The notes under the pieces were generated by a model. The model was not told the DNA's origin, made no database searches, and was given only the letters and a program-made list of their open reading frames with translations. The position numbers and the translations under genes are program-made. From Bacteroidales bacterium (GTDB lineage Bacteria > Bacteroidota > Bacteroidia > Bacteroidales > PXBB01), in contig JAQVVM010000019.1 in NCBI GenBank assembly GCA_028698995.1, positions 1 through 64,000 of the forward strand: a stretch of DNA of 64,000 bases. The letters are read 5' to 3'. Each line of letters begins with the position of its first letter. Position 1 is the first letter of the stretch. Below, in pieces: positions 2,572 to 6,831 of this stretch.

Positions 2572-2600
2572 TTTGTGCAACAATATATTTTTTATCTTTA
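2572..2600 (+). promoter_or_regulatory. candidate Bacteroidota promoter for the rSAM/lipoprotein cassette
   Basis: TTTG at 2572-2575 is followed after 17 bases by TATCTTTA at 2593-2600. This fits the Bacteroidota -33/-7 pattern except that the last base of TAnnTTTG is A. It sits 25 bases before the first lipoprotein gene, and no other promoter-like pair was seen before the radical SAM gene. Confidence 0.45.
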
Positions 2601-2625
2601 CTAAAAATTATTATTCCGTTTAAAC

Positions 2626-2967
2626 ATGAAAATCAAGAGAAGTATCCTTAAAATTAAGTCAAAATTATATTATTATACCTTAGTGTTATATGGGGCTACA
2701 AGCATGATGTTTTTCTCAAAATGTTCGACTACAAATGCAGTTGATAAAAATCAGGAAATTAATGATTCTATATCCAAAGCAGACTCTTTAGCACAGATAG
2801 AGAAAGAACAGGCATTATTAGATTCTATAGCTCAGGCTGAAAGCCAACAAGCATTATTAGATTCAATTACCAAGGCAGATTCTGTTCAAAGAGCAGGAAG
2901 CAAACCTAATCCTTACAGACCCACCACTCCTGTAACCAAATATGGTGTGCCTTTCAATAATAACTAA
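2626..2967 (+). CDS. repeat-containing short lipoprotein ending in TKYGVP motif (rSAM-associated)
   Basis: This is a 113-residue predicted lipoprotein. The hydrophobic N-terminus leads to a lipobox-like FFSKC with Cys33. It continues as a highly charged, probably helical stretch (about 46-88) with two near-repeats, DSISKADS/DSITKADS and QALLDSIAQA/QALLDSITKA. The C-terminus (TPVTKYGVPFNNN) holds TKYGVP at residues 104-109. The same motif recurs in the next small gene, and both sit directly before a SPASM radical SAM gene. I recall a YG-x-P type motif in the lipoproteins that accompany TIGR04133 radical SAM enzymes, so this is a likely substrate or partner. That role is inference. Confidence 0.7.
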   Translation: MKIKRSILKIKSKLYYYTLVLYGATSMMFFSKCSTTNAVDKNQEINDSISKADSLAQIEKEQALLDSIAQAESQQALLDSITKADSVQRAGSKPNPYRPTTPVTKYGVPFNNN

Positions 2968-2988
2968 CCATTTATATCAAAACATTTT

Positions 2989-3150
2989 ATGAACCATCTT
3001 GTAAAAAAAAATTTTAATACAACCGCTTTAAAAATTTTATTATTGATTGCCTGGTTGGTTTTACTTGGGTTCAATTCTTGTCGCACTAAGCCACAAACCA
3101 AATATGGTGTTCCGACTTCCGGATTTCAGAGCAGAGATAAACTAGAATAA
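2989..3150 (+). CDS. 53-residue lipoprotein with TKYGVP motif (rSAM-associated)
   Basis: This short gene has ATG at 2989 and TAA at 3148-3150. The 53-residue product has a basic start, a hydrophobic segment (about 15-28, LKILLLIAWLVLLGF) and the lipobox-like FNSC with Cys31. The mature part is only 23 residues, RTKPQTKYGVPTSGFQSRDK plus two residues after Cys31. TKYGVP (37-42) is shared with the preceding gene, although the two proteins are otherwise unrelated in sequence. The gene lies 21 bases after its neighbour and 16 bases before the radical SAM gene, which suggests one operon. The tiny mature part built around a shared motif looks like a maturase substrate. The modification itself is unproven. 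Confidence 0.72.
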   Translation: MNHLVKKNFNTTALKILLLIAWLVLLGFNSCRTKPQTKYGVPTSGFQSRDKLE

Positions 3151-3166
3151 ACATGCTTTATAGATC

Positions 3167-4267
3167 GTGAAAAATTATTATCCTTCACTTCGAAAACGTA
3201 TTGCTCTTAATATTTTCAGCAAATACACAGATGCCCAATCAAAATTACATGATCTAAGTTATTTTTTCTGGGAATGCACATTGCGTTGTAACATCAGTTG
3301 TATTCATTGTGGCAGTGATTGTCGTCAAGACACTTCTGTTAAAGATATGCCTTATCAGGATTTTTTAAAAATTACTGCACGTGTTAAAGAAGTGTACAAT
3401 CCAAATAAAGTAATGATTGTAATTACCGGTGGTGAGCCTCTTTTAAGAAAAGACCTTGAAGAAGTTGGTCTGGAGCTTTATAAACAAGGATATCCTTGGG
3501 GCTTTGTAACAAATGGTTTTGCCTTAACAGAAGAACGCTTTAATAATCTAATAAGAAGTGGTTTGCGTTCCATGACAATCAGTCTAGATGGTTTAAGTGA
3601 CAGCCACAATTGGATGAGAGGGAACAAACAAAGTTTTGAAAAAGCAATCAACGCCATTAAGCTTGCAGTTGGTGCAGGTAATAATTTTGTTTTTGACGTT
3701 GCAACTTGTGTTAATCAAAGAAATTTTTCAGAACTTTCAGACATAAAAAATTGCCTGATTCAACTTGGTGTAAAAAGATGGCGAATTTTCAGTATCTGCC
3801 CTATAGGCCGAGCTAAAGACAATAAAGAACTTCACCTTTCCAATAAAAAATTTTGTGAAGTGCTTGATTTTATCAAAACCAATCGCGAGGAGGGTATTAT
3901 TGATACCAGTTTTGGGTGTGAAGGTTTTCTTGGGAACTTTGAATCAGAAGTTCGGGATGGATTTTTCTTCTGCCGCGCAGGTATAAATATTGCTTCTGTG
4001 CTTGCTGATGGTTCTATTTGTGCTTGCCCGAATATTGACAGGGATTCTTTTACTCAAGGCAATATTTACAATGACGACTTTATTGAAGTATGGGATAAAA
4101 AGTTTCAGAAGATGCGCAACCGCTCTTGGGCCAAAGAAGGCTTATGTGCAGAATGTAAGGAGTTTAAATGGTGTAAAGGAAATGGTATTCATCTGAGAGA
4201 TGTAAAAAATCATGATGTGCTCAGGTGTCATTATCAGATGATAAAAGACAATTATACACAAATATAA
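3167..4267 (+). CDS. radical SAM/SPASM enzyme of the rSAM/lipoprotein system
   Basis: This 366-residue radical SAM enzyme probably modifies a peptide or protein. The 4Fe-4S/SAM motif is CNISCIHC (Cys41, Cys45, Cys48), preceded by an extra Cys37. The SAM-binding GGEP motif is at about 88-91. The C-terminal third carries a Cys-rich SPASM-type region: CRAG, CACPN, CAECKEFKWCKG and a final RCHY, which would bind auxiliary clusters. From memory it fits the TIGR04133 group that pairs with a short lipoprotein in Bacteroidota. The two upstream TKYGVP lipoproteins support this. It is convergent with the next gene, 26 bases away. The reaction is unknown to me. Confidence 0.85.
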   Translation: MKNYYPSLRKRIALNIFSKYTDAQSKLHDLSYFFWECTLRCNISCIHCGSDCRQDTSVKDMPYQDFLKITARVKEVYNPNKVMIVITGGEPLLRKDLEEVGLELYKQGYPWGFVTNGFALTEERFNNLIRSGLRSMTISLDGLSDSHNWMRGNKQSFEKAINAIKLAVGAGNNFVFDVATCVNQRNFSELSDIKNCLIQLGVKRWRIFSICPIGRAKDNKELHLSNKKFCEVLDFIKTNREEGIIDTSFGCEGFLGNFESEVRDGFFFCRAGINIASVLADGSICACPNIDRDSFTQGNIYNDDFIEVWDKKFQKMRNRSWAKEGLCAECKEFKWCKGNGIHLRDVKNHDVLRCHYQMIKDNYTQI

Positions 4268-4293: not shown

Positions 4294-6831
4294 CTAACTG
4301 ACCCTGTAAATAAGTTTTACTGTCTTTCTATAATTTTCAGAATAGAAACTAAGCAAATACAAGCCACTCCTTAAACTTGTTTTCGACAAGTCCAGATTAA
4401 TGATATTGCGCCCGGCAGGTAAAAAGGAATTGGAATTCACAATTTCAAAGAGTTGTTTACCCTGTGAGTCAAATAATTTCAAAGAAACCGGCTCTGCAGC
4501 AGGTAAATAAATTTCAATAGTTGTTGAATGAGTAAAGCTTGTAGGGTAAACGTTAATAAATATTGAATTAGGCTCAGTACTCTGAATACCTGCTGTTGAC
4601 AGAAAATGCGCCACAATAGTATCTGTACTGTTTAAGTCAGTGTTTATAGCAGCGGTGGTTAAATTAGGCAAAATATTCTGATTGGCCGAAGACCAGTTTG
4701 TGAAATTGTATCCATTAATAGGATTGGCAGTTAAGGATGTGGTTGTATTTCCGAAAAATGTTCCTGTCCATGGAAACTGTGTAAGTTCCATAGTATTAAG
4801 AGTAATGCTTCCTGATGATAATGGATCGGTTGTAATAGTCATCTGATAAGGGCCAGTAAGATTAAAACAACTCATAAAACCTCCTGTAATTGCTGTACAC
4901 CTTTGAATAATAAAGTTGCGCAAAGTCTGAACATTGTCTTGCCATTCACTATAGGTTCCATTCCAACGTGCAGCATGGGCAGTCATCTCGGGATCAATTA
5001 AAGCCACAGTACTATCTAAAGCAGGAATCATATTGTCACAATCAAAAACAGTGTTCCACAAATCAACAAGATGGTTGATATAATAGGTGTTGAATTGTTG
5101 ATTGGTACGAAGCTTCAACAACAACCCTATGAAGTCATCAGGATCATCAACACCGGAACTTTCAACATCACAAGGTGTTGCAAAAGCAGATGTTGTTGGC
5201 AGTCCTGTATAGTTAATGTAAAAATCAAAAGTGGCATCATTGTCCCACAAAATAAAACCCCATTTCAAATGGGTACCAGAAGAATCAAGGCCTCTCCACC
5301 AACCGGTATTGTAATTCAACCAGTCAGTACAAACGGTAAACATATTTACTGCCACATAATCAATAAGACTAGTAACATCAAGTCTGTCGTCAACATATTG
5401 AAAATTAGCCTGATCGGTCATGTCATTATTCATGGCAAAATCGTATAAAGAATTCCAGTCATCAAATGCTGCATTACCACCATACTGTGCCCAGCTATTG
5501 CCCCACCTTTCAAGAAAATACAAATGAAATTTATCCTGACCGTAATAGTATTTAGTATTATCATGATTATCGGGATCATCTCTCAAATCATAAACACCCC
5601 AATATGCCCCATTTATATATAAAATGCACTTTGAACCCCTTCTCACATCGAGTTGTAAACCACCTTTTTGTACCAAGTTATGAATATAAGCATCTCTGAC
5701 ATGTGCACTTCCCAGATTCGCTGAATGATGATCTGCCGGGTAATTATCATCTCCTGCTGCTCGTAAAATTACACGTTGGTATTTGTCGCGGGGAGAAGTG
5801 TTAAACAAGGTTTCTTCAATTGAGTGATTGTATCCCATTTCATCACGTGAAATAAAATCGAGGCTACGCTGACTGTTAGCCCATGAATCTTGTCCATGGC
5901 TGTTAAACTCACCATAGGTTTGTGCGGTGCGTACTTTGTTGACATTAAAATACTCAAATGTGCCATGAGGTCTTAAACTGCTTGTACCATTAGCCAATGT
6001 TGTTAAAGAATTAGCACTGATTGAAACGACAGGTAAGGTATGTGACACATTAATAAAATAAGTTTCGTATTTCAAAAACCCTGGAAGAACAGAGGCATTT
6101 GTGCTGAATGTTCTGGCTTTTAACACTTTCGTTGTGGAAATTGTTACAGGACCAGTGTATAAAGAAGAACTGCTTGTTGGTAAAGTCCCATTTGTGGTAT
6201 ATCGAATTTCTGCATCAGGCTCGGTGGTTGTCATAGTTACGATTACATCAGAGGGATAAAATCCGGCATTAACACTAAATACCGGAGTCGAAGCATAGGC
6301 ATTATAGGGTGTAGATGCATTATTGGAAGCTCCCGGCGTGGGTGACGTGAAAATATTCCAATTGTTTTGACCATCTTGAGTACGACCATAAGAATGTCCT
6401 AATTGGGTTTTCTGAGTTATTGCTTTGTAGTCTATCAGACTCCCTGATGCATTCGAAAGCATGATATATTCAGGATTGTTTTTGGTTTGTTTTAAATTAA
6501 AATTGGTATGATGAATAGTTCCTACAGACTCGTTTCGTCCGGAAGCCCAAACACGTAAAAAACCATGTGCAGGTATGCTAGTACCAACAGGAAAGCTCCA
6601 TTTAGACAAATTCAGGGAATCGTCACTGAGATAAAATCCTGTAATATTCACATCGGTTGAAGTGGTATTGTAAAATTCAATCCAATCGTTGTAATCACTG
6701 TGATTATCAATGTACTGCGAGAGATTTGAACAAGAAAACTCATTTATAACTATTTGTGAGTTAATTATTTTACTATTTAAAACACATATTAAAAGTATGA
6801 GAACCGTTGATTTGAAAGTTTTTCTTATCAT
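4294..6831 (-). CDS. secreted CotH kinase-family protein with lamin-tail domain and T9SS CTD
   Basis: This 845-residue extracellular protein has a signal peptide (1-25, ending NSQ). A lamin-tail domain follows (about 27-140: VINEFSCSN, WIEFYNTT). A chitobiase/Fn3-associated beta domain lies at about 178-250 (AEIRYTTNGTLPT). A CotH-like atypical kinase domain spans about 270-620 (LILRAAGDD region, NGAYWGVYDLRDDPD, WGFILWDNDATFDF). A List/InlB-type repeat (SLTANPINGYNFTNW) and a type A T9SS sorting domain at about 760-845 (INVYPTSF, final KLIYRVS) complete it. CotH proteins phosphorylate spore-coat proteins in Bacillus. The role of secreted Bacteroidota versions is unclear to me. Confidence 0.85.
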   Translation of the reverse strand: MIRKTFKSTVLILLICVLNSKIINSQIVINEFSCSNLSQYIDNHSDYNDWIEFYNTTSTDVNITGFYLSDDSLNLSKWSFPVGTSIPAHGFLRVWASGRNESVGTIHHTNFNLKQTKNNPEYIMLSNASGSLIDYKAITQKTQLGHSYGRTQDGQNNWNIFTSPTPGASNNASTPYNAYASTPVFSVNAGFYPSDVIVTMTTTEPDAEIRYTTNGTLPTSSSSLYTGPVTISTTKVLKARTFSTNASVLPGFLKYETYFINVSHTLPVVSISANSLTTLANGTSSLRPHGTFEYFNVNKVRTAQTYGEFNSHGQDSWANSQRSLDFISRDEMGYNHSIEETLFNTSPRDKYQRVILRAAGDDNYPADHHSANLGSAHVRDAYIHNLVQKGGLQLDVRRGSKCILYINGAYWGVYDLRDDPDNHDNTKYYYGQDKFHLYFLERWGNSWAQYGGNAAFDDWNSLYDFAMNNDMTDQANFQYVDDRLDVTSLIDYVAVNMFTVCTDWLNYNTGWWRGLDSSGTHLKWGFILWDNDATFDFYINYTGLPTTSAFATPCDVESSGVDDPDDFIGLLLKLRTNQQFNTYYINHLVDLWNTVFDCDNMIPALDSTVALIDPEMTAHAARWNGTYSEWQDNVQTLRNFIIQRCTAITGGFMSCFNLTGPYQMTITTDPLSSGSITLNTMELTQFPWTGTFFGNTTTSLTANPINGYNFTNWSSANQNILPNLTTAAINTDLNSTDTIVAHFLSTAGIQSTEPNSIFINVYPTSFTHSTTIEIYLPAAEPVSLKLFDSQGKQLFEIVNSNSFLPAGRNIINLDLSKTSLRSGLYLLSFYSENYRKTVKLIYRVS

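Follow-up and report, generated by a model that had tools for sequence, protein, structure and literature searches.

What does a radical SAM enzyme do when its gene lies directly behind those of two small exported proteins that share a six-residue stretch, TKYGVP, and are otherwise unrelated? This arrangement occurs in a 64,000-nucleotide stretch of contig JAQVVM010000019.1 (GCA_028698995.1) from a Bacteroidales bacterium of the lineage PXBB01; we refer to the whole stretch as the window.

An enzyme gene and two genes for small exported proteins

Three consecutive genes on the forward strand encode a 113-residue protein (2626-2967), a 53-residue protein (2989-3150), and the enzyme (3167-4267). 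A sequence-only reading of this DNA had drawn attention to the two small proteins and their common TKYGVP, and the ORFs and motifs are where it placed them; the distance that it gave to the enzyme gene, 16 to 240 bases, should read 199 bases from the end of the first gene and 16 bases from the second. Because the intergenic gaps are just 21 bases (first to second gene) and 16 bases (second gene to enzyme gene), a single transcript is likely, and we infer from this spacing that the three genes form one operon. It would pair an oxygen-sensitive enzyme that modifies proteins with two of its predicted substrates. A possible Bacteroidota-type promoter at 2572..2600 (+), read from the sequence by comparison with the Bacteroidota consensus, would consist of TTTG (2572-2575) and TATCTTTA (2593-2600) with a spacer of 17. 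A scan for sigma-70 promoters and terminators found no excess of sites. The two flanking genes are on the opposite strand and are outside the three-gene unit. One (1309-2529, -) encodes a secreted alpha/beta hydrolase with a PETase match (PF12740, E 1.2e-19), a weak BHET hydrolase match, and a T9SS sorting tail; the other (4294-6831, -) encodes a CotH kinase that likewise ends in a T9SS tail and also contains lamin-tail and chitobiase-like domains.

The enzyme (3167..4267, +; 366 residues, GTG start) is a radical SAM/SPASM protein of the family TIGR04133, as the earlier reading had suggested: it scored 533.7 bits against the profile (cut-off, 425), aligning with positions 1-349 of 350. The Pfam Radical_SAM and SPASM models both matched, the latter over residues 269-331. 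The CX3CX2C motif of the radical SAM cluster (Cys41, Cys45, and Cys48; 3287..3310, +) and the Cys52 that follows it are invariant in 51 family members, as are Cys269, Cys287, Cys327, Cys330, Cys336, and Cys354 of the SPASM region (Cys269 to Cys354; 3971..4228, +). The last cysteine of the CX2CX5CX3C motif is replaced in the family (by Gly340 in the window enzyme), and Cys251 is newly invariant; Cys251 may stand in for the auxiliary-cluster ligand lost at position 340. In a relative from Agathobacter (L073), Cys52, Cys251, and Cys340 are all present. An AlphaFold model of the enzyme (pLDDT, 94.8) has a complete SPASM fold and no extra RRE domain, and the folds closest to it are SuiB, anSMEcpe, ChlB, and CteB. 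TIGR04133 genes were found in 18 genomes among 60 relatives, several of which have two copies, and further members occur in Bacteroidota, Fibrobacter, and Spirochaetota. The second copy in the window's own genome (L002; 520.2 bits) is preceded by genes for two small exported proteins, one ending in MYGVRRNVY and the other containing AYGTFPAEF near its C terminus.

The 113-residue protein (2626..2967, +) is predicted to be exported and membrane-anchored. It has a hydrophobic N terminus, a spacer of DSIxxADS repeats, and the C-terminal stretch TKYGVPFNNN, and six homologs are encoded at loci L030-L033. The 53-residue protein (2989..3150, +) is a predicted lipoprotein with similar proteins at L032/L017, L033, and L016. 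Its putative lipid-anchor cysteine, Cys31 (3079..3081, +), lies in the sequence FNSC; provided that this is the lipidated residue, the mature part has 23 residues, as had been claimed, and the protein is an unusually clean substrate. The term lipoprotein, previously applied to both proteins, is less certain for the 113-residue protein than for this one. In the 113-residue protein, the candidate anchor, Cys33 (2722..2724, +), is preceded by Lys (FFSKC), and a basic residue at -1 does not make a normal lipobox, judging by sequence. A basic residue is kept at this position in the homologs at L030, L031, and L032 (Arg, in TRC, SRC, and PRC), and in this protein family the cysteine may belong to an anchor that stays uncleaved or to an atypical LspA site.

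The first TKYGVP (2935..2952, +) is an X-Tyr-Gly stretch with Lys as X and Asn at +7. The second (3097..3114, +), also recovered as a genome-wide pattern match at G000:C91:3103, is followed by TSGF, which puts an aromatic residue at +7. A 6-mer common to both mature parts arose in 14 of 200,000 shuffles. The proposed pairing of TIGR04133 with TIGR04134 was right in kind; a true TIGR04134 protein (53.4 bits) is encoded at L030, where the enzyme is 78% identical to that of the window. It was only partly right for the window proteins themselves: against a cut-off of 39.8 bits, the 53-residue protein scored 23 bits over profile positions 8-43 only, and the 113-residue protein gave no match.

Tyr-Gly in the neighbors of TIGR04133 enzymes

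We sampled 54 family loci, choosing neighboring ORFs with an export-like N terminus blind to the motif. YG was the most overrepresented dipeptide in these exported neighbors, occurring at 51 of the 54 loci (24.1 expected; maximum of 34 in 300 shuffles). Because the loci are related, scaffolds were counted as well: 65 YG proteins fell into 25 groups, with similarity undetectable outside the signal and the motif. The scaffolds include TIGR04134-type proteins, which weakly match carboxypeptidase-regulatory domains, proteins with DSIxxADS spacers, coiled-coil-like proteins, and Fibrobacter proteins with several motifs. The Fibrobacter partners at L044:3270-3989 and L039:2159-3196 are single Ser-rich proteins with four to six YG motifs.

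Residue X before YG is free over 116 sites (K, 23; M, 16; E, 14; C, 14; L, 13), and the +2 residue likewise varies freely (V, T, S, I, P, A, C). Proline is found at +3 in 63 of 115 sites and Tyr, Phe, or Trp at +7 in 41% of sites, compared with a background of 10%. Across these sequences, Tyr-Gly is the one near-constant feature, and Pro at +3 and the aromatic residue at +7 are merely frequent; by these counts, TKYGVP represents in the window a wider pattern, X-Tyr-Gly-x-Pro-x3-[Tyr/Phe]. The sequence-only reading had suggested aligning neighboring small ORFs for a conserved YG-x-P and had named Tyr or Pro as the likely modified residue. Its YG was borne out, and Tyr is a likely target; Pro is an unlikely one, being missing from about 45% of the sites while YG is near-constant across loci.

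A DNA pattern for the motif gave 61 matches in the whole genome and 114 for the reversed control. With no overrepresentation at this level, the YG signal is confined to particular exported proteins rather than being genome-wide. No third gene (RRE, peptidase, or exporter) was found to be conserved beside the family enzymes. A YG-bearing ORF of L024 (at 670) and clusters of antisense ORFs over the enzyme gene were set aside, as they look like chance frames. A subset of loci (L020-L025, L027-L029, L045, L050, L052, L053, and L075) has C-Y-G-x-P or CYG alone. In such proteins (e.g., QACYGTP), the predicted lipid cysteine is X, and modification would therefore abut the lipid anchor.

Two substrates, or so tiny a one, had been thought to make the window copy unusual, and this view has to be given up. 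YG proteins number none at 3 loci, one at 33, two at 14, three at 3, and four at 1; at least two are thus encoded at 18 of 54 loci, three or four being found in close relatives. At L030, the true TIGR04134 protein is followed by two homologs of the 113-residue protein, and tiny relatives of the 53-residue protein occur at L032, L033, and L016.

Enzyme genes lacking any YG neighbor had been named as evidence against the pairing, and a few were found. By a mechanical rule, L059, L062, and L066 have none, and by eye the YG matches at L043 and L064 are unlikely substrates. Several of these cases have a candidate after all. A TIGR04133 neighbor at L062:3712-3960 has two CVYGPPP repeats and no signal peptide, so export is seemingly not required; the L066 genome encodes an unlinked CYGTP lipoprotein, and the L043 genome an unlinked LYGPPPVSF protein. 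At L059 and L064 (Prevotellaceae), where the TIGR04133 genes are intact, no convincing YG partner was found nearby, and a TIGR04134 search of their genomes was empty. L114 and L120 hold unlinked YG proteins from genomes whose enzyme has no YG neighbor. The window's own genome encodes a small unlinked lipoprotein ending in PVAEYGPPPHYYYKEFKGK (L153:761-1048; G000:C69, about 8.2-8.5 kb) and an unlinked exported protein with AQYGAPVDLY just past the predicted signal cleavage site (L108:1057-1836; G000:C85). By eye, the L108 protein has a T9SS-type C-terminal tail. We regard the pairing of enzyme and substrates as close to certain and consider it probable that Tyr-Gly is the site of action.

Possible chemistry at the motif

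PlpX is assigned to IPR026482, which we take to be equivalent to NCBIfam TIGR04103. As described in PMC11002830, PlpX excises tyramine from Xaa-Tyr-Gly. In the reaction, for which PlpX needs PlpY, X is joined to Gly via an alpha-ketoamide, according to PMC11002830 and PMC10533398 (Morinaka et al. 2018). Table 1 of PMC10533398 gives the tags IRPLYGLPI and AAGYGVVFP; in AAGYGVVFP, residue X is an engineered Gly. A TIGR04103 precursor from Nostoc ends in LYGLPPELF, which agrees with the pattern seen in Bacteroidota down to the aromatic residue at +7. On the basis of the PlpX-type X-Tyr-Gly motif and this precursor, we propose tyramine splicing; a free residue X (K, M, E, C, L, and others) is as expected for a splicease motif.

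In the proposed mechanism, the enzyme would recognize the X-Tyr-Gly stretch in the cytoplasm, ahead of Sec export, with no leader peptide or RRE domain. Radical chemistry would begin at the Tyr, tyramine (C8H9NO, about 135.07 Da) would be removed, and X would be linked to Gly through an alpha-ketoamide, as by PlpXY. The modified protein would then be exported and anchored via its lipid cysteine. Export and lipid anchoring would place the reactive ketoamide on a flexible tail in the window proteins or beside the anchor in the TIGR04134 and CYG types, and we speculate that it would most likely inhibit proteases, as a reversible-covalent inhibitor held at the membrane, or serve as some other electrophilic handle. 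By this analogy, tyramine excision by the window enzyme stands evenly balanced in our judgment. The account as a whole, in which the operon serves X-Tyr-Gly tyramine splicing of membrane-anchored proteins, is the explanation that we narrowly favor.

The window enzyme scored 122.2 bits against TIGR04103, below the cut-off of 725, and the TIGR04053, AhbD, and NirJ2 models score it about equally. When heme-type, MftC, PqqE, and TIGR04053 sequences served as the outgroups of a tree (seven rows, mostly on long branches, with no sactipeptide maturases), TIGR04133 grouped with TIGR04103/TIGR03913 with support of 99/99, TIGR04103 being represented by one true member. A first tree, from which heme-type sequences were absent, gave no resolved sister group for TIGR04133. 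Among the plasmid records listed, the best non-family matches by E-value were members of the TIGR04103/TIGR03913 clade. Common to TIGR04133 and TIGR04103/TIGR03913 and rare in other SPASM rows are W35, G49 (in HCGS), W205, and GxxGxYExxxR (253-263). No PlpY-like RRE partner adjoining the enzyme was conserved across the loci; the window's genome has two unlinked PqqD-like genes (L182 and L183). At two TIGR04103-like Bacteroidota loci, there was no convincing YG peptide among the ORFs read. DUF1843 peptides beside TIGR03913 enzymes (L079:787-999; L074:3204-3917) have PYG near the N terminus, or in some cases YA instead, which suggests that the TIGR03913 "GDL" system may use the same chemistry. 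In Agathobacter rectalis, an unannotated 35-residue ORF (L073:3812-3919) ending in GPVMYGTGVRM lies 81 bases upstream of a TIGR04103-like radical SAM gene.

Alternatively, the enzyme could cross-link the Tyr to the +2 residue or the +7 aromatic residue, forming an ether or a C-C cyclophane, in the manner of many SPASM maturases. Such a reaction would agree with the near-constant Tyr, with the excess of aromatic residues at +7, and with a fold closest to those of SuiB, anSMEcpe, ChlB, and CteB; SuiB forms a C-C cross-link. We nevertheless consider it unlikely, given that +2 varies freely, that +7 is often nonaromatic (as in the 113-residue protein), and that an unreactive Gly is retained. Slightly less probable again is some other radical reaction at Tyr-Gly, such as epimerization, cleavage of the Tyr side chain, dehydrogenation, or modification of the Gly. 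SPASM enzymes carry out diverse chemistry, and no element other than Tyr-Gly is near-constant, but a reaction of this kind would leave the X-Tyr-Gly motif of the apparent nearest characterized relative unexplained. It is very improbable that YG is merely a docking or sorting motif, with the modified residue elsewhere (e.g., the lipid cysteine) or another molecule as the substrate: YG directly follows the lipid cysteine in one subclade, but elsewhere its distance from the cysteine reaches 60-80 residues, single proteins can have several copies of it, and it is present both in the signal-less L062 protein and in L018 and L031 proteins with a non-lipoprotein signal. Neither small protein reaches a family cut-off, but a coincidence of two ordinary small lipoproteins beside an unrelated radical SAM gene is scarcely credible when dozens of loci in Bacteroidota, Fibrobacter, and Spirochaetota show the same pairing and L030 joins a bona fide TIGR04134 protein to homologs of the 113-residue protein.

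If tyramine splicing at X-Tyr-Gly is correct, backbone splicing would be a routine membrane-protein modification in many Bacteroidota, gut members included. We extend this tentatively, and with somewhat more doubt than belief, to the proposal that backbone-spliced membrane-anchored proteins are made outside RiPP pathways in many Bacteroidota, as well as in some members of Fibrobacter and Spirochaetota. These would be ketoamide-bearing lipoproteins, possibly protease inhibitors or covalent handles, and the CYG type would homologate the lipidated cysteine.

Comparison with known systems

TIGR04133 and TIGR04134 are NCBIfam hypothetical equivalogs with curated names, yet their reaction is not described in the literature searched, in which no paper naming either family was found. 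The one survey of such splicease-type enzymes, that of Scott and colleagues in Chem in 2022, may already include the TIGR04133 family. The window system resembles this pair in an enzyme that passes the cut-off, a membrane-protein neighbor with YG-x-P, and the gene order of its relatives. It differs in having two substrates instead of one, with predicted substrates also unlinked, and its small proteins lack the carboxypeptidase-regulatory-like domain of TIGR04134 and score under or outside that model.

Among SPASM enzymes of solved structure, anSME, SuiB, CteB, and ChlB share the fold of the window enzyme along almost its entire length (VIA-align Z 25-27), with about 14-22% identity and other substrates. 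The TIGR03913 "GDL motif" maturase with its DUF1843 peptides falls into the same clade in one of the two trees and has PYG or YA, but the peptides are small and without a signal sequence. The PlpX/PlpY system of Pleurocapsa acts on Nif11/NHLP-type precursors. The window system, in contrast, has no PlpY neighbor, leader peptide, or dedicated exporter, its predicted substrates are membrane-anchored proteins rather than RiPP precursors, and its enzyme has lost the last Cys of CX2CX5CX3C, gained Cys251, and scored below the TIGR04103 cut-off. What the two systems share is a SPASM radical SAM enzyme, placed in one sampled clade by one of the two trees, and an X-Tyr-Gly motif, often followed by V or L and by P, that can occur several times in one precursor.
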